Source: Acinetobacter pittii (GTDB lineage Bacteria > Pseudomonadota > Gammaproteobacteria > Pseudomonadales > Moraxellaceae). Taken from it: a DNA stretch of 64,000 nt. The notes beneath the pieces were generated by a model that did no database searches, was not told the origin of the DNA, and saw nothing but the letters and a program-made list of their open reading frames with translations. The translations under genes were made by a program, and so were the position numbers. Positions 52,893-58,235 of the stretch are shown here, piece after piece; positions within the stretch are counted from its first letter, which is position 1; every line of letters begins with the position of its first letter. The stretch lies in the NCBI RefSeq assembly GCF_034064985.1, contig NZ_CP139249.1, positions 372,001-436,000 of the forward strand, read 5' to 3'.

Positions 52893-53869
52893 TAGTTTTT
52901 CTCCGCCTTTGCTGTTTCACTTTCAGCTTGTGCTTTTAGCTGTGCCAATACTTCATCACGTAAGTGTGGTTCTGCCATTGGGAAGCCAAGCTCTGCACGT
53001 GCTTGTACATAACTTTGTGCAATAGCACGCGCTAAAGTACGTACACGTAAAATGTAACGTTGACGCTCAGTCACAGAAATTGCGCCACGTGCATCAAGCA
53101 AGTTAAAGGTATGAGACGCTTTAACCACTTGCTCATAAGCAGGAAGAGAAAGTTTTGCTTCAATTAAACGGTTTGCTTCTGATTCGTAAAAATCAAACAG
53201 TTCAAATAGTTTTTCAACCGGAGCGTATTCAAAGTTGTAAGTCGATTGTTCAACTTCATTTTGATGGAATACGTCGCCATAAGTTACAGTACCGAATTGG
53301 CCTTTGGTCCAAACAAGGTCATAAACCGAGTCAACGCCTTGAAGGTACATAGCAAGACGTTCTAAACCGTAAGTGATTTCACCTGTTACTGGGTAACATT
53401 CAACGCCACCGACTTGTTGGAAGTAAGTGAACTGAGTCACTTCCATACCATTAAGCCAAACTTCCCAACCTAAGCCCCAAGCACCTAGCGTTGGAGACTC
53501 CCAGTTGTCTTCTACGAAACGGATGTCGTGAGTAAGCGTATCAATCCCGATTGCTTTTAAAGAATCAAGATAAAGCTGTTGAATGTTGTCTGGGTTTGGC
53601 TTAAGTACTACTTGGAACTGGTAGTAGTGTTGCAAACGGTTCGGGTTTTCACCATAGCGGCCATCTTTTGGACGACGTGAAGGTTGAACGTATGCTGCGT
53701 TCCAAGTCTCAGGCCCTAAAGCACGTAAGAATGTTGCGGTGTGGAATGTTCCAGCGCCCATTTCCATGTCGTAAGGTTGTAATACGACGCAGCCTTGTTC
53801 GGCCCAATAGTTTTGTAGGGCAAGAATTAAGCCCTGAAATGTATCAATGTGCGAGATGGCGCGACTCAT
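52892..53869 (-). CDS. glyQ: Glycyl-tRNA synthetase, alpha subunit
   Basis: This 325-residue alpha subunit is class II synthetase core: [71 protein letters not shown] and [20 protein letters not shown]. It is about 20 residues longer than E. coli GlyQ through a charged C-terminal tail ([18 protein letters not shown]). Operon glyQ-glyS. Confidence 0.96.
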
Positions 53870-53958
53870 GTAGCATCCACGAATTTATGAGAAAAATTGC
53901 CCCTAAGTATAAGGATTTTGTAGGGGAGTGGCAAAGGCTTAATCAAAGGAATGCGCGA

Positions 53959-54384
53959 TTAGCTTATTTGTTTTCGGCTTAGCCACTTCAAGCTTAACCA
54001 GTAGCAAAAGCCAGTAAACAAAATCATGAGATAAAAACTGTAAATCTTATAAATATCCCACCAAGGAGAAGGAAACGATCCGACAAAAATCAAACGTGCA
54101 ATAGGGCTTATCAAAATCCAAATCGCAGTTGCGCTGATGAAAATACTCATCAGATTTAAACGATTTTTACGGGCGAGAAAATAGGAAATGATATATGCAA
54201 AAGGAATAACCAGAAGGCCATAAAAAAGTAAATAAAATAAGAAGTGGGCTAGAAAAATAACTCCAATCGAATAAAGGTTGAACTCAGCATTTAATGTCAT
54301 GACCCCTAAGGCAGATAAACTCAGCAATGGGATGGGTGCAAGCGCAAGTGCGTGAATAATCATTTTTTTGTTATATTGAAGCAT
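53959..54384 (-). CDS. Small inner-membrane protein
   Basis: This 141-residue protein has four hydrophobic helices and short basic loops, ending WLSLKWLSRKQIS. No family recognised. It is divergent from the LprI-like gene, only 29 bases apart, so their promoters must overlap each other's coding ends. Confidence 0.7.
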   Translation of the reverse strand: MLQYNKKMIIHALALAPIPLLSLSALGVMTLNAEFNLYSIGVIFLAHFLFYLLFYGLLVIPFAYIISYFLARKNRLNLMSIFISATAIWILISPIARLIFVGSFPSPWWDIYKIYSFYLMILFTGFCYWLSLKWLSRKQIS

Positions 54385-54413
54385 ATTAAAAATTATAGAA
54401 TCGAGAATAAATT

Positions 54414-54830
54414 ATGCTGAAATTTTGCTGCAAACTCATTGTTTTATCCAGCCTTTTTTGTAGTCCATGGCTTTACGCGCAGACGGAAACTGATGAGCAA
54501 GATGAATACAACCAATGTGTAGAACAGACCATTAAAGAAATGAAGCTTGAGAGTATTAACAACATGGTCGTGCATAGCTGTTCTGAACAAGCTAAAAAGA
54601 CTTATGAAGAAAAAATTGTTGCTCTCATTGATCAAATTCGCACACAAAGCGAAGAATATAAACAGCCAGAGCGTTATCAAGATATTTTAAAATCTCAGCG
54701 ACTTTGGAAAGCTTATGTAGATCAGGAATGTAGTAATGCAGGCTCATACATTGGCTCACCGATGTATTCGTATTGCCCAATGCAAGAGTATGCAGCGCGT
54801 GTAAAACAGCTTGAAGAATACGTTAATTAA
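54414..54830 (+). CDS. LprI-N/DUF1311-like exported protein
   Basis: This 138-residue protein has a signal peptide (LIVLSSLFCSPWLYAQ). The mature part carries four Cys in a pattern NQCVEQT, HSCSEQA, DQECSNAGSYIGSP and SYCPMQEYAARV. Together with LKSQRLWKAYVDQEC this fits the LprI N-terminal domain (PF07007, formerly DUF1311), whose relatives include lysozyme inhibitors. Lysozyme inhibition is inferred only. Confidence 0.75.
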   Translation: MLKFCCKLIVLSSLFCSPWLYAQTETDEQDEYNQCVEQTIKEMKLESINNMVVHSCSEQAKKTYEEKIVALIDQIRTQSEEYKQPERYQDILKSQRLWKAYVDQECSNAGSYIGSPMYSYCPMQEYAARVKQLEEYVN

Positions 54831-54939
54831 GACGAATTATTTTAAACGTCACCTCATGACGCTTAGCATACTTCACTGGATTAAATTTAAGAATGCAAAA
54901 TGATATTTTTTGAACGATGCCATAAATGAGTCGTTTGAT

Positions 54940-56202
54940 ATGTCTGATCGCATTCGAGAAAAATTACAGATTCTTGCTGATGCTGCTAAATATGATGTGT
55001 CTTGTTCATCAAGTGGCAGTGACCGTAAAAATAAAGATAAAGGCCTAGGCGATGCCAGCCATTCGGGTATTTGTCATAGCTATACTGAAGATGGGCGCTG
55101 TGTATCTCTCTTAAAAATTCTATTTAGTAATGTATGTATTTTTGACTGCGCCTATTGTGTTTCACGTCGTTCTAATGACGTCCAGCGTGCAGCATTTACT
55201 GTGCAAGAGGTTGTAGATTTAACCATTAATTTTTATCGCCGTAATTATATCGAAGGCTTATTTTTAAGCTCAGGCATTTTTAAATCGGCAGATCACACGA
55301 TGGAGCGTATGCTTCAAGTCGTAAAGAAGTTGCGTCTTGAAGAAAACTTTAATGGCTATATTCATCTAAAAACTATTCCGGGAGCATCACCTGAACTGAT
55401 TCATGAGGCAGGTTTATATGCTGACCGTATGAGTATTAATTTAGAGATGCCGACCGAGGTGGGGCTAAAAACTTTTGCACCAGAAAAATCACATCATGAA
55501 GTGCAAAAAGATTTAGGTTTGGTCCGTGATAGATTGATTCAGCTTAAAGATGAGCGACAAATTATTAAGCATGTCCCAAAGTATGTGCCAGCAGGGCAGA
55601 CCACTCAAATGGTAGTGGGTGCACATCAAGAATCAGATCAAGATGTTTTGTTTATGGCAGACAAGCACTACAAAGAGTTTAAACTTAAACGCGTCTATTT
55701 TTCTGGTTATATCCCAATTAATACTGAAAATAATTATTTACCAGCAGTGGGTTCTGCACCGCCATTACTACGGGAAAATCGTCTCTATCAAAGCGATTGG
55801 TTGATGCGTTTTTATGGTTTTGAAGTTAATGAAATCGTCAATGAAAAACACCCAAACTTAGATCTTGATGTAGACCCGAAATTAAGCTGGGCTTTAAGGC
55901 ATCCCGAACAGTTTCCGGTAGATTTAAATCGTGCCGATTATCAGATGATTTTGCGTGTACCAGGCATAGGTGTGAAGTCGGCGAAGAAAATTGTGCAAGC
56001 TCGCCGTTTTGGAAAAATCCATATCGATTTACTTAAAAAACTCGGTGTGGCTTATCAGCGAGCAAAATTCTTTATTCGATGTGAAGACAGTCCAAAATTC
56101 CAAAAAGAATTGTCTTCAAGTTTTATTCGGCAGCAGATTTTAACGCAGGGTTCCTCGAAATATGTGCAGCAACTCTCGCCACAATTAAGCCTTGGGTTTT
56201 AG
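54940..56202 (+). CDS. Radical SAM protein, putative DNA modification/repair (TIGR03916-like)
   Basis: This 420-residue protein has the radical-SAM cluster Cys66-x3-Cys70-x2-Cys73 in NVCIFDCAYC, preceded by the family signature DAAKYDVSCSSSGSDR and further Cys at 45 and 54. A C-terminal helix-hairpin-helix, LNRADYQMILRVPGIGVKSAKKIVQARRFG, at about 327-360 suggests nucleic-acid binding. It matches the family annotated as putative DNA modification/repair radical SAM protein, always found with a TIGR03915-type partner, here 2 bases downstream. ATG 54940 matches the family start; TTG 54910 is in frame but unlikely. Substrate and reaction are unknown. Confidence 0.88.
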   Translation: MSDRIREKLQILADAAKYDVSCSSSGSDRKNKDKGLGDASHSGICHSYTEDGRCVSLLKILFSNVCIFDCAYCVSRRSNDVQRAAFTVQEVVDLTINFYRRNYIEGLFLSSGIFKSADHTMERMLQVVKKLRLEENFNGYIHLKTIPGASPELIHEAGLYADRMSINLEMPTEVGLKTFAPEKSHHEVQKDLGLVRDRLIQLKDERQIIKHVPKYVPAGQTTQMVVGAHQESDQDVLFMADKHYKEFKLKRVYFSGYIPINTENNYLPAVGSAPPLLRENRLYQSDWLMRFYGFEVNEIVNEKHPNLDLDVDPKLSWALRHPEQFPVDLNRADYQMILRVPGIGVKSAKKIVQARRFGKIHIDLLKKLGVAYQRAKFFIRCEDSPKFQKELSSSFIRQQILTQGSSKYVQQLSPQLSLGF

Positions 56203-56204
56203 TC

Positions 56205-57002
56205 ATGTTTAATGAGGAAGTTGCTTACTATTTTGATGGCTCAATGGTTGGGCTGCTAAGCTGTGTGTTTCGTGCATTTCAATTTAAAGAATTACAGGTC
56301 AAACTCTGTTTGAATGATGCAGCTCAGCATGGCTTATTTGCTGATAAAATTGAGGTTTCAAATAACGAGCAACATGCCGAGCGTGTTTGGTCTGCCCTGA
56401 AAAAAAAGCTTTCATCTTCTTCATTAAAACAATTCTATTTTGCCTCTTTATCTGAATCTTTAGATGCCTATCAACATTTATTTAATTATTGTATTTATGT
56501 GTTTACTAGCCATGTTTCCATAGAAAAAGATTATTCAAATCCTAGTGTTTTAGCGATTGCACAGTGGACGAAAAAGGTCGGACGAGAGAAGCATCGGATG
56601 GAAGCTTTTATTCGTTTTAAGAAAACCAAAGATGAGCTTTTTTTGAGTCTAGTACGTCCCGATTTTAATGTTTTGCCGCTTATTCAGCCGCATTTTAAAC
56701 GGCGTTATCAAGATCAGCGTTGGCTGATTTATGATGAGAAACGTAAGTTCGGGCTTTATTATGATTTACGAGAAATACATGAAGTTTCACTCGAGGCTTC
56801 TGAAGTTGACCGTAATTTAAAAAATGGAATGAGTCAAAGCTTTCAGCTTGAGCTTGATGAGCAGGAAGTTTTATATGACCAGCTTTGGAAAGATTATTTT
56901 AAGAGCGTGAATATTACTGAACGCCAAAATATAAAACTCCATGTGCAATATTTACCTAAACGCTACTGGCGTTATTTAAATGAAAAATTGATGGAATATT
57001 AA
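56205..57002 (+). CDS. TIGR03915-like partner of radical SAM protein
   Basis: This 265-residue protein contains YYFDGSMVGLLSCVFRAF, KKVGREKHRMEAFIRFKK, LVRPDFNVLPLIQPHFKRRYQDQRWLIYDEKR and FGLYYDL. These are marks of the uncharacterised DNA-metabolism family TIGR03915. In many bacteria this domain is fused to a uracil-DNA-glycosylase-like (UdgX-type) domain; here it is not, and no such gene lies in the window. It begins two bases after the radical-SAM stop, so the two are translationally coupled. Function unknown. Confidence 0.85.
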   Translation: MFNEEVAYYFDGSMVGLLSCVFRAFQFKELQVKLCLNDAAQHGLFADKIEVSNNEQHAERVWSALKKKLSSSSLKQFYFASLSESLDAYQHLFNYCIYVFTSHVSIEKDYSNPSVLAIAQWTKKVGREKHRMEAFIRFKKTKDELFLSLVRPDFNVLPLIQPHFKRRYQDQRWLIYDEKRKFGLYYDLREIHEVSLEASEVDRNLKNGMSQSFQLELDEQEVLYDQLWKDYFKSVNITERQNIKLHVQYLPKRYWRYLNEKLMEY

Positions 57003-57134
57003 AGTTTTAAAATCATAAAAAATAGTTCAGCAGGTTTTCTTATTATTCAAAGATATAATTTAAATGCATTTTATGTGGCTTTGGGCGTATACTTTTGCCC
57101 GTTATAAATGACGGCATATCCCTAAAGGTGTACT

Positions 57135-58235
57135 GTGAGTGTTATACAGCGACAATGGTTACAGATTTTAAAACCAAATTTTAAGGTTTTACCTTTAAAA
57201 GAACGATTACTTTGCGGTATTGGAGCGTTGTGTGGTTTAGCAATTTCTTCCTTAATTAGTTGGTATGTTCTAGGGGGGATTAATGCATGGTACATCGCTC
57301 CAATGGGTGCCTCATCTGTTCTATTGTTTGCTGTGCCGACCAGTCCTTTGGCTCAACCTTGGAATGTGATTGTTGGTAATACTTTAGCCGGAATTATTGG
57401 CGTTGCCTGCGCACAGTGGATTCCTGATTTAACAACGGCTTTTAGTGTTGCGGTAGGTTTTGCCATTTTTTTAATGATGACCACCGATTCTTTACATCCA
57501 CCGAGTGGAGCGGTTGCGATTACAGCCGTACTAGGTGGAGCTGCGATTCATAAGTTAGGCTTTTATTTTATTTTTTACCCAGTTTTACTCAACTCATTGC
57601 TTCTATTAGGTTTTGCCGTATTTTTTAACCGATTAATTGGGCGACATTATCCGGTGACTGCACATTTGAATGAGCGTAGCAAGGACCCAACGCCTACTCA
57701 AAAGGTATCGATTCAACCAAAAGATATTGAGTACGCATTAGAGCATCACACTGAACTTTTAGATATTAGCCAATATGACTTAGAAAAAATCATTTTAGAA
57801 GCGCAAGAGCATGCCAATGAGCGCATGGTCAATCAATATGTCTGTCAGGATATTATGAGTCGCGACGTGATTAAACTACATGAAGATGATGATATTCATC
57901 AGGCACTCGATAAGTTTAAACAAGTGAACCTAATGAGCTTGCCTGTAGTCAATGCAGAGAACCATCTGGTCGGAACTTTAGCGTTATATGAAGTCGTAGA
58001 ATGGTTTAAGGGGGCAGCCGACCCAAGAAATTCTTGGCAGCATTACGTAAAACAAATTATGAGCCGTCGAGTGGTCACGGTATTACCAACTCAACCTATT
58101 CAAGATTTAGTGCCGTACTTTGTCGAAAAGTCTTTTAACTACATTCCTGTGGTTGAAGATCGTAAGCTTATAGGAATGATTAGCCGTGCAGATATGATTG
58201 CTGCATTACAGCAACAGTTAAATCGAAAGCTATAA
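57135..58235 (+). CDS. HPP-family membrane protein fused to two CBS domains
   Basis: This 366-residue protein has an N-terminal block of five to six helices with the HPP motif SLHPPSGAVAITAVLGG (about 118-134). A soluble linker follows, then two CBS domains (about 235-290 and 308-362: DIMSRDVIKLHEDDD, IMSRRVVTVLPTQPI). Some HPP proteins move nitrite in cyanobacteria; CBS pairs bind adenosyl nucleotides. Nucleotide-gated anion or solute transport is therefore possible but unproven. The start codon is GTG with AAAGG upstream. Confidence 0.82.
   Translation: MSVIQRQWLQILKPNFKVLPLKERLLCGIGALCGLAISSLISWYVLGGINAWYIAPMGASSVLLFAVPTSPLAQPWNVIVGNTLAGIIGVACAQWIPDLTTAFSVAVGFAIFLMMTTDSLHPPSGAVAITAVLGGAAIHKLGFYFIFYPVLLNSLLLLGFAVFFNRLIGRHYPVTAHLNERSKDPTPTQKVSIQPKDIEYALEHHTELLDISQYDLEKIILEAQEHANERMVNQYVCQDIMSRDVIKLHEDDDIHQALDKFKQVNLMSLPVVNAENHLVGTLALYEVVEWFKGAADPRNSWQHYVKQIMSRRVVTVLPTQPIQDLVPYFVEKSFNYIPVVEDRKLIGMISRADMIAALQQQLNRKL

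Follow-up and report, generated by a model that had tools for sequence, protein, structure and literature searches.

Anatomy and family membership of the gene pair

Within a 64,000-nucleotide stretch of Acinetobacter pittii DNA (contig NZ_CP139249.1, positions 372,001 to 436,000; hereafter the window), two adjacent genes on the plus strand encode a radical S-adenosylmethionine (SAM) protein, called rSAM below, and a partner protein of the DUF4130 family, both situated behind an operator-like palindrome. The features of this locus, in window coordinates, are as follows.

54847..54861, no strand assigned: operator-like palindrome CGTCA-CCTCA-TGACG, at -93 to -79 from the rSAM ATG, from aligned upstream regions
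54940..56202, plus strand: radical-SAM/helix-hairpin-helix protein, TIGR03916 (690.6 bits, cut-off 343.5)
55003..55101, plus strand: stretch encoding C22, C45 and C54, putative ligands of an additional cluster, invariant in 116 of 116 proteins
55135..55158, plus strand: CxxxCxxC motif (C66, C70 and C73, numbered from the ATG at 54940), PF04055, invariant in 116 of 116 proteins
55915..56007, plus strand: helix-hairpin-helix, PF12836, residues 336-366 numbered from the TTG at 54910
56205..57002, plus strand: stand-alone DUF4130/TIGR03915 partner (260 bits, cut-off 112.25; PF13566, 163.6 bits)
56574..56852, plus strand: DHHA1-like portion of the DUF4130 model, residues 124-216

The rSAM open reading frame (ORF) comprises 420 aa from the ATG at 54940, with a TTG in frame at 54910, and the partner ORF of 265 aa begins at 56205, leaving the two-base gap that a preliminary description of the sequence had reported. 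That description had also proposed a radical-SAM enzyme with a C-terminal helix-hairpin-helix (HhH) next to a stand-alone TIGR03915 partner, and the profile searches agree throughout: besides the full-length family scores listed above, the radical SAM motif matched PF04055 with 32.4 bits (gathering score 29.5), the HhH matched PF12836 with 27.9 bits, barely above its gathering score of 27, and the DUF4130 protein carries no fusion to a UdgX-type uracil-DNA glycosylase (UDG) domain. The pair is a genuine member of the known, uncharacterised TIGR03916/TIGR03915 kind, with both families over cut-off, adjacent and in the same order and strand, and it differs from the kind in its unfused partner, its Bacteroidota-type branch and the Acinetobacter palindrome in front. 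In the literature searched, DUF4130, TIGR03915 and TIGR03916 appear only in PMC3765255, and COG4277 only in PMC8565304.

Six cysteines (C22, C45 and C54 in addition to C66, C70 and C73) are invariant in all 116 rSAM proteins longer than 300 aa. The '3-Cys cluster' of the preliminary description is present as the radical SAM triad, yet this triad makes up only half of the conserved cysteines, and because all six are invariant a second Fe-S cluster is likely. Lipoyl synthase and MiaB-type radical SAM enzymes, which carry an auxiliary cluster on three N-terminal cysteines, are among the closest known systems of the rSAM protein.

For the partner, the structure model is similar to DHH/DHHA1 phosphoesterases, minus the metal motif, and on fold alone DUF4130 resembles this superfamily (RecJ, PAP phosphatase, PggH, Cdc45), from which the window protein differs in having no DHH triplet. 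The hallmarks given in the accessible part of PMC11229311 are a DHH motif in the DHH domain and a GGGH motif in the DHHA1 domain, and both strings are absent from the window's DUF4130 protein. Moreover, neither Pfam DHH nor DHHA1 was hit in 31 DUF4130 members at E values up to 10, and hhalign against PggH-like (31 rows) and RecJ (11 rows) profiles, both narrow, returned probabilities below 1 percent, on which grounds homology at the sequence level was rejected.

Co-occurrence, glycosylase fusions and origin

Among 299 Pseudomonadota genomes, after 13 with sub-cut-off rSAM matches had been dropped, rSAM was found over cut-off in 53 and DUF4130 in 56; every one of the 53 rSAM genomes contains DUF4130, which leaves G200 (near a contig start), G217 and G287 with the partner only. 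In Acinetobacter the two genes come and go together, with both genes in the same 55 of 79 genomes and neither in the same 24. A DUF4130 ortholog (P0023) carries an A. baylyi species name. The two genes lie on one strand in all 113 loci where both were found, and DUF4130 follows downstream on the same strand in 80 of 80 genome_contigs loci, which are the best 80 of 588 relatives (77 Bacteroidota and three Acinetobacter). One of the 55 Acinetobacter genomes, G331 (C14:7658-8411), has a DUF4130 gene broken by several stops next to an open rSAM frame, and the pair seems to be decaying there.

The preliminary description had stated that elsewhere the partner frequently carries a fused UDG-like domain, which holds for Pseudomonadota: 22 of 27 partner proteins adjoining TIGR03916 (in 29 loci) match TIGR03914, 20 of the 27 contain GEQPG, and 15 of those 20 also the [KR]RRxH loop. 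According to the available text of PMC10359453, GEQPG and this loop constitute the UdgX signature, and UdgX bonds covalently to DNA (PMC10359453 and PMC10776899, both as far as available). At the genome level, TIGR03914 exceeds its cut-off in 39 of the 53 Pseudomonadota pair genomes, directly after DUF4130 in 38 of them, and in none of the remaining 14, some of which have weaker matches (to E 1e-32). Among the 38, the match in G155 is partial and in a different frame; in the remaining genome of the 39, G194, UdgX lies on another contig with both pieces at contig ends. UdgX genes were also found without the pair; just upstream of one of these (G071:C1:5486827-5487696) lies a 50-residue DUF4130 remnant, because of which some UdgX genes may descend from a DUF4130 fusion.

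These fusions bear on the idea that the pair is left over from a uracil base-excision system of the UdgX type, in which rSAM and DUF4130 merely serve the crosslinking glycosylase. Passages of PMC8565304 predict COG1573-COG4277 in both Bacteroidota SOS networks and term it a UDG-based repair system; we take this to be the TIGR03916/TIGR03915 pair (COG4277 with a COG1573-labelled partner). Nevertheless, we consider a UdgX remnant unlikely. The genome-wide search for a UdgX-type glycosylase, which the preliminary description had suggested, was negative in the window's own genome and in the whole Acinetobacter sample (0 of 79 at E 0.001), 0 of the 14 unfused Pseudomonadota pair genomes exceed the cut-off, and the Bacteroides ihuae control matches TIGR03916 and TIGR03915, not TIGR03914. 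No UdgX-type domain occurs within the 80 genome_contigs loci, a result confined to the loci themselves, and since the partner lacks it in the 77 Bacteroidota loci, the UDG-based label may misfit many of them. Behind the pair in a Taibaiella metagenome-assembled genome (L042:8119-8709) lies a glycosylase-like gene that matches TIGR04274 with 37.7 bits (cut-off 80).

The phylogeny points to acquisition of the Acinetobacter pair by transfer from Bacteroidota, because Acinetobacter branches inside that phylum. In a quick tree of 74 rows, including 39 of the 77 Bacteroidota loci and five Acinetobacter, the latter group with ten Bacteroidota (Shimodaira-Hasegawa-like approximate likelihood ratio support 99), and other Proteobacteria stand apart (100). 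A second Moraxellaceae genus (L002), on a long branch and of unsure placement, falls elsewhere among Bacteroidota (94), and a single Bacteroidota clade was rejected by the approximately unbiased test (p-AU 0.0002). The DUF4130 identities agree, ranging from 38-49% to 18 Bacteroidota rows, with 37% to L002 and 17-20% to ten other-Proteobacteria rows.

Within the genus, the pair adjoins glyQ in 11 of 20 fetched loci and is placed elsewhere in nine. Loci without it could be compared for 17 of the 24 pair-less genomes, the other seven having no full-length HPP match, and all 17 retain glyS, glyQ and HPP. The content of the glyQ-HPP interval (53869-57135 in the window) differs among Acinetobacter genomes, with an LprI-like gene, a small membrane gene or the pair, so that it looks like an insertion hot spot. 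Among viral_contigs, 23 pattern stretches yielded two rSAM relatives (L116 and L117, with 51% and 91%, the latter a fragment at a contig end), which are perhaps host-derived DNA; carriage of the pair by phages was rejected.

Upstream motifs and neighbouring genes

Of the 74 Bacteroidota loci read, 36 have a published SOS motif upstream of the pair (CTAA-N5-TTAG in 23, GGA-N5-TCC in 13, none with both), compared with 15 and 21, respectively, of 1480 shuffled controls. Furthermore, among 108 neighbour proteins from 35 Bacteroidota loci, S24 peptidase-helix-turn-helix, AlkD-like and Y-polymerase families are recurrent. Eight neighbour queries were run against the 77 Bacteroidota loci, a WYL query that hit its own locus only being excluded from the count. 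An XRE-S24 repressor lies divergently upstream of the pair in 14 of the 77, an AlkD-like neighbour occurs in seven, a damage ligase with its exonuclease, Ku and a Pol IV-type polymerase in two each, and a glycosylase-like gene in one. This sequence evidence argues that the pair is damage-regulated in Bacteroidota.

In Acinetobacter a different element is found. Upstream regions were given for 23 pairs and read for 22 (all except that of G331), and 19 of the 22 contain CGWCA-N5-TGWCG between -84 and -100. Its arms co-vary (CGTCA/TGACG in 11 sites, CGACA/TGTCG in six, mixed in two) around nine spacers; near relatives in this sample are non-independent, though it takes in both genomic locations as well as the co-varying arms. 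The pattern appeared in 12 of 44000 first-order resampled upstreams and in none of 46 upstreams of other genes at the same loci. The sequence CGTCANNTCATGACG has one exact match in the own genome and two more at one mismatch, and taken alone the palindrome is unremarkable: with two mismatches allowed, the window yields one match where 0.68 would be expected. The known operator of UmuDAb/DdrR, given as TTGA-N4-GTNAC-N4-TCAA in the available part of PMC11332147, has no match in 54831-54939 at up to three mismatches (the whole window having 45 matches, 44.65 expected), and control of the pair by it was rejected. An RNA leader was likewise rejected, since shuffled sequences fold as well as the 109-nt leader (z -0.45). 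No terminator-like site was found in 54700-57140, and no sigma-70-like promoter match lies between the palindrome and the neighbourhood of the ATG, the first plus-strand match being at 54935 (three matches, compared with 7.4 in shuffles).

A scan for the palindrome gave 17 sites in the own genome, 18 in G308 and 27 in G361, with 9, 15 and 8 for a reversed-pattern control. It precedes recA in G308 and G361 and, among 20 further fetched sites, in G317 and G337. The own-genome recA, found by gene, is preceded by CGTCG-N5-TGTCG, which has one arm mismatch and is in register with the other four recA sites. In G308 and G361 the palindrome also stands before an endonuclease-G-like gene, in G361 before an MmeI-like gene, and in the own genome before a CBASS phospholipase (genome positions 1829629-1829643), an AbiC-like gene (243225-243239) and uvrC (3548235-3548249); the last three hint that defence and repair are controlled together. 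A position weight matrix (PWM) scan of 1.264 Mb of the own genome returned two sites scoring at least 18, namely the CBASS site, which was not in the training set, and the pair's own, which was. Mitomycin treatment of A. baylyi induces recA as well as an endonuclease G gene (PMC3978071 Table 1). In the literature search nothing was recognised that describes the palindrome as a published operator, and the text of PMC10808703 contains none of 'palindrom', 'motif' and 'recA promoter'; the available passages of PMC11332147 deal with the operator of UmuDAb.

Several sites were dropped from the palindrome reading. Six of the 17 own-genome sites are copies of CGTCAGCTCGTGTCG, which we take to be 16S rRNA; others lie in coding sequence or in CurR upstreams (L273 and L295, and L359 by layout), and those after guaB (L271, L365, L370, L373 and L375, with a Pfam gene identity for L365) look like intrinsic terminators. 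The palindrome shared with recA is a good lead towards a damage operator, short of proof. To our knowledge Acinetobacter has no LexA, and this palindrome would make it testable how LexA-less Acinetobacter controls its UmuDAb-independent damage genes.

A candidate DNA repair module and rival explanations

Taken together, there is good evidence, at the level of sequence, for a DNA-damage role of the pair, and with confidence a little above even we lean towards a two-protein module for DNA repair that is induced by DNA damage and reached Acinetobacter from Bacteroidota. In the mechanism that we infer, the HhH of rSAM would hold damaged DNA, the SAM-bound cluster would generate a 5'-deoxyadenosyl radical to attack the lesion, and a second N-terminal cluster on C22, C45 and C54 would handle electrons, sulfur or substrate. 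DUF4130, with its DHH/DHHA1-like fold lacking metal ligands, may bind and present the DNA, probably single-stranded or flipped, and would represent a docking arm that in other bacteria is fused to UdgX. Bacteroidota and many Proteobacteria carry the pair. If confirmed, a radical repair enzyme that combines an HhH, a likely second cluster and a partner fused elsewhere to a crosslinking glycosylase would amount to new repair chemistry.

Several observations weigh against this interpretation. Searches of the literature turned up neither a phenotype nor a reaction nor expression results for the pair, in line with the preliminary description, which had called its reaction and substrate unestablished. 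The rSAM structure model, built from an 18-row alignment, is poor around the cysteines (predicted local distance difference test below 50 at residues 19-46 and 64-72), and the link of DUF4130 to DHH proteins found no sequence support from Pfam or hhalign. At least one repair-type or SOS-type neighbour occurs in 26 of the 77 Bacteroidota loci, leaving 51 without any, and the queries were drawn from these same, related loci with no random-locus control. The palindrome is missing in three of the 22 Acinetobacter upstreams (L169, L172 and L180), the motif itself led to four of the five recA sites, and the own recA scores 14.2 with the PWM compared with at least 18 for the training sites. Weak PWM hits in the 1.264 Mb are unenriched, with 59 at a score of at least 9 versus 55, 83 and 43 for shuffled columns. 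In addition, mitomycin represses uvrC in A. baylyi and leaves it unchanged in A. baumannii (PMC3978071 Table 2), and the A. baylyi mitomycin table (PMC3978071 Table 1) names no radical SAM protein, its locus tags not having been mapped to the pair.

The HhH had led the preliminary description to suggest either lesion repair or base modification. The DNA link is further supported by the SOS motifs and the repair-type or SOS-type neighbours in Bacteroidota and by the recA-shared palindrome in Acinetobacter, and because of the damage-type control lesion repair is favoured over a standing base modification. An epigenetic or anti-restriction modification without repair would fit a radical SAM enzyme with an HhH, a family named 'modification/repair', a patchy presence and the palindrome before CBASS, AbiC-like and MmeI-like defence genes; set against the Bacteroidota SOS motifs, the repair-type neighbours and the mere two relatives in viral_contigs, it appears quite improbable. 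An enzyme acting on RNA, for example damaged tRNA, and induced along with the damage response would be very improbable, as the UdgX fusions and DNA-repair neighbours point to DNA.

About as improbable as base modification is the direct reversal of a pyrimidine photolesion in the manner of spore photoproduct lyase (SplB). That enzyme has one cluster and is not known to have an HhH, whereas an HhH and three extra cysteines belong to the window rSAM, and no spore photoproduct lyase family appeared among NCBIfam/Pfam matches up to E 0.1, the presence of a suitable model in these libraries being unconfirmed. Its absence among the fold matches shown excludes nothing. The likeness lies in the idea of radical SAM repair itself, in the grouping of the partner with 'SplB-like radical SAM photolyases' in the available part of PMC3765255, and in the place of SplB, too, in the Bacteroidota SOS networks according to passages of PMC8565304.

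More far-reaching than the repair module, and on balance doubtful, is a second Acinetobacter damage operator, RCGWCA-N5-TGWCGY, which with its own regulator would control recA, the endonuclease-G-like gene, some phage-defence genes, perhaps also uvrC, and the pair, the latter being a two-cluster radical enzyme with a metal-free DHH-fold DNA clamp and a novel repair chemistry. We marked this proposal down because uvrC is not reported to be damage-induced in the wild type; its induction is described in mutants only in the accessible part of PMC10808703. Elsewhere, a LexA target of S. venezuelae is named simply 'Radical SAM protein' in the available text of PMC9380542. Finally, the palindrome also stands in front of a small membrane-like protein that two genomes share (L267 and L294), the L267 copy having no Pfam match at E 1e-5.
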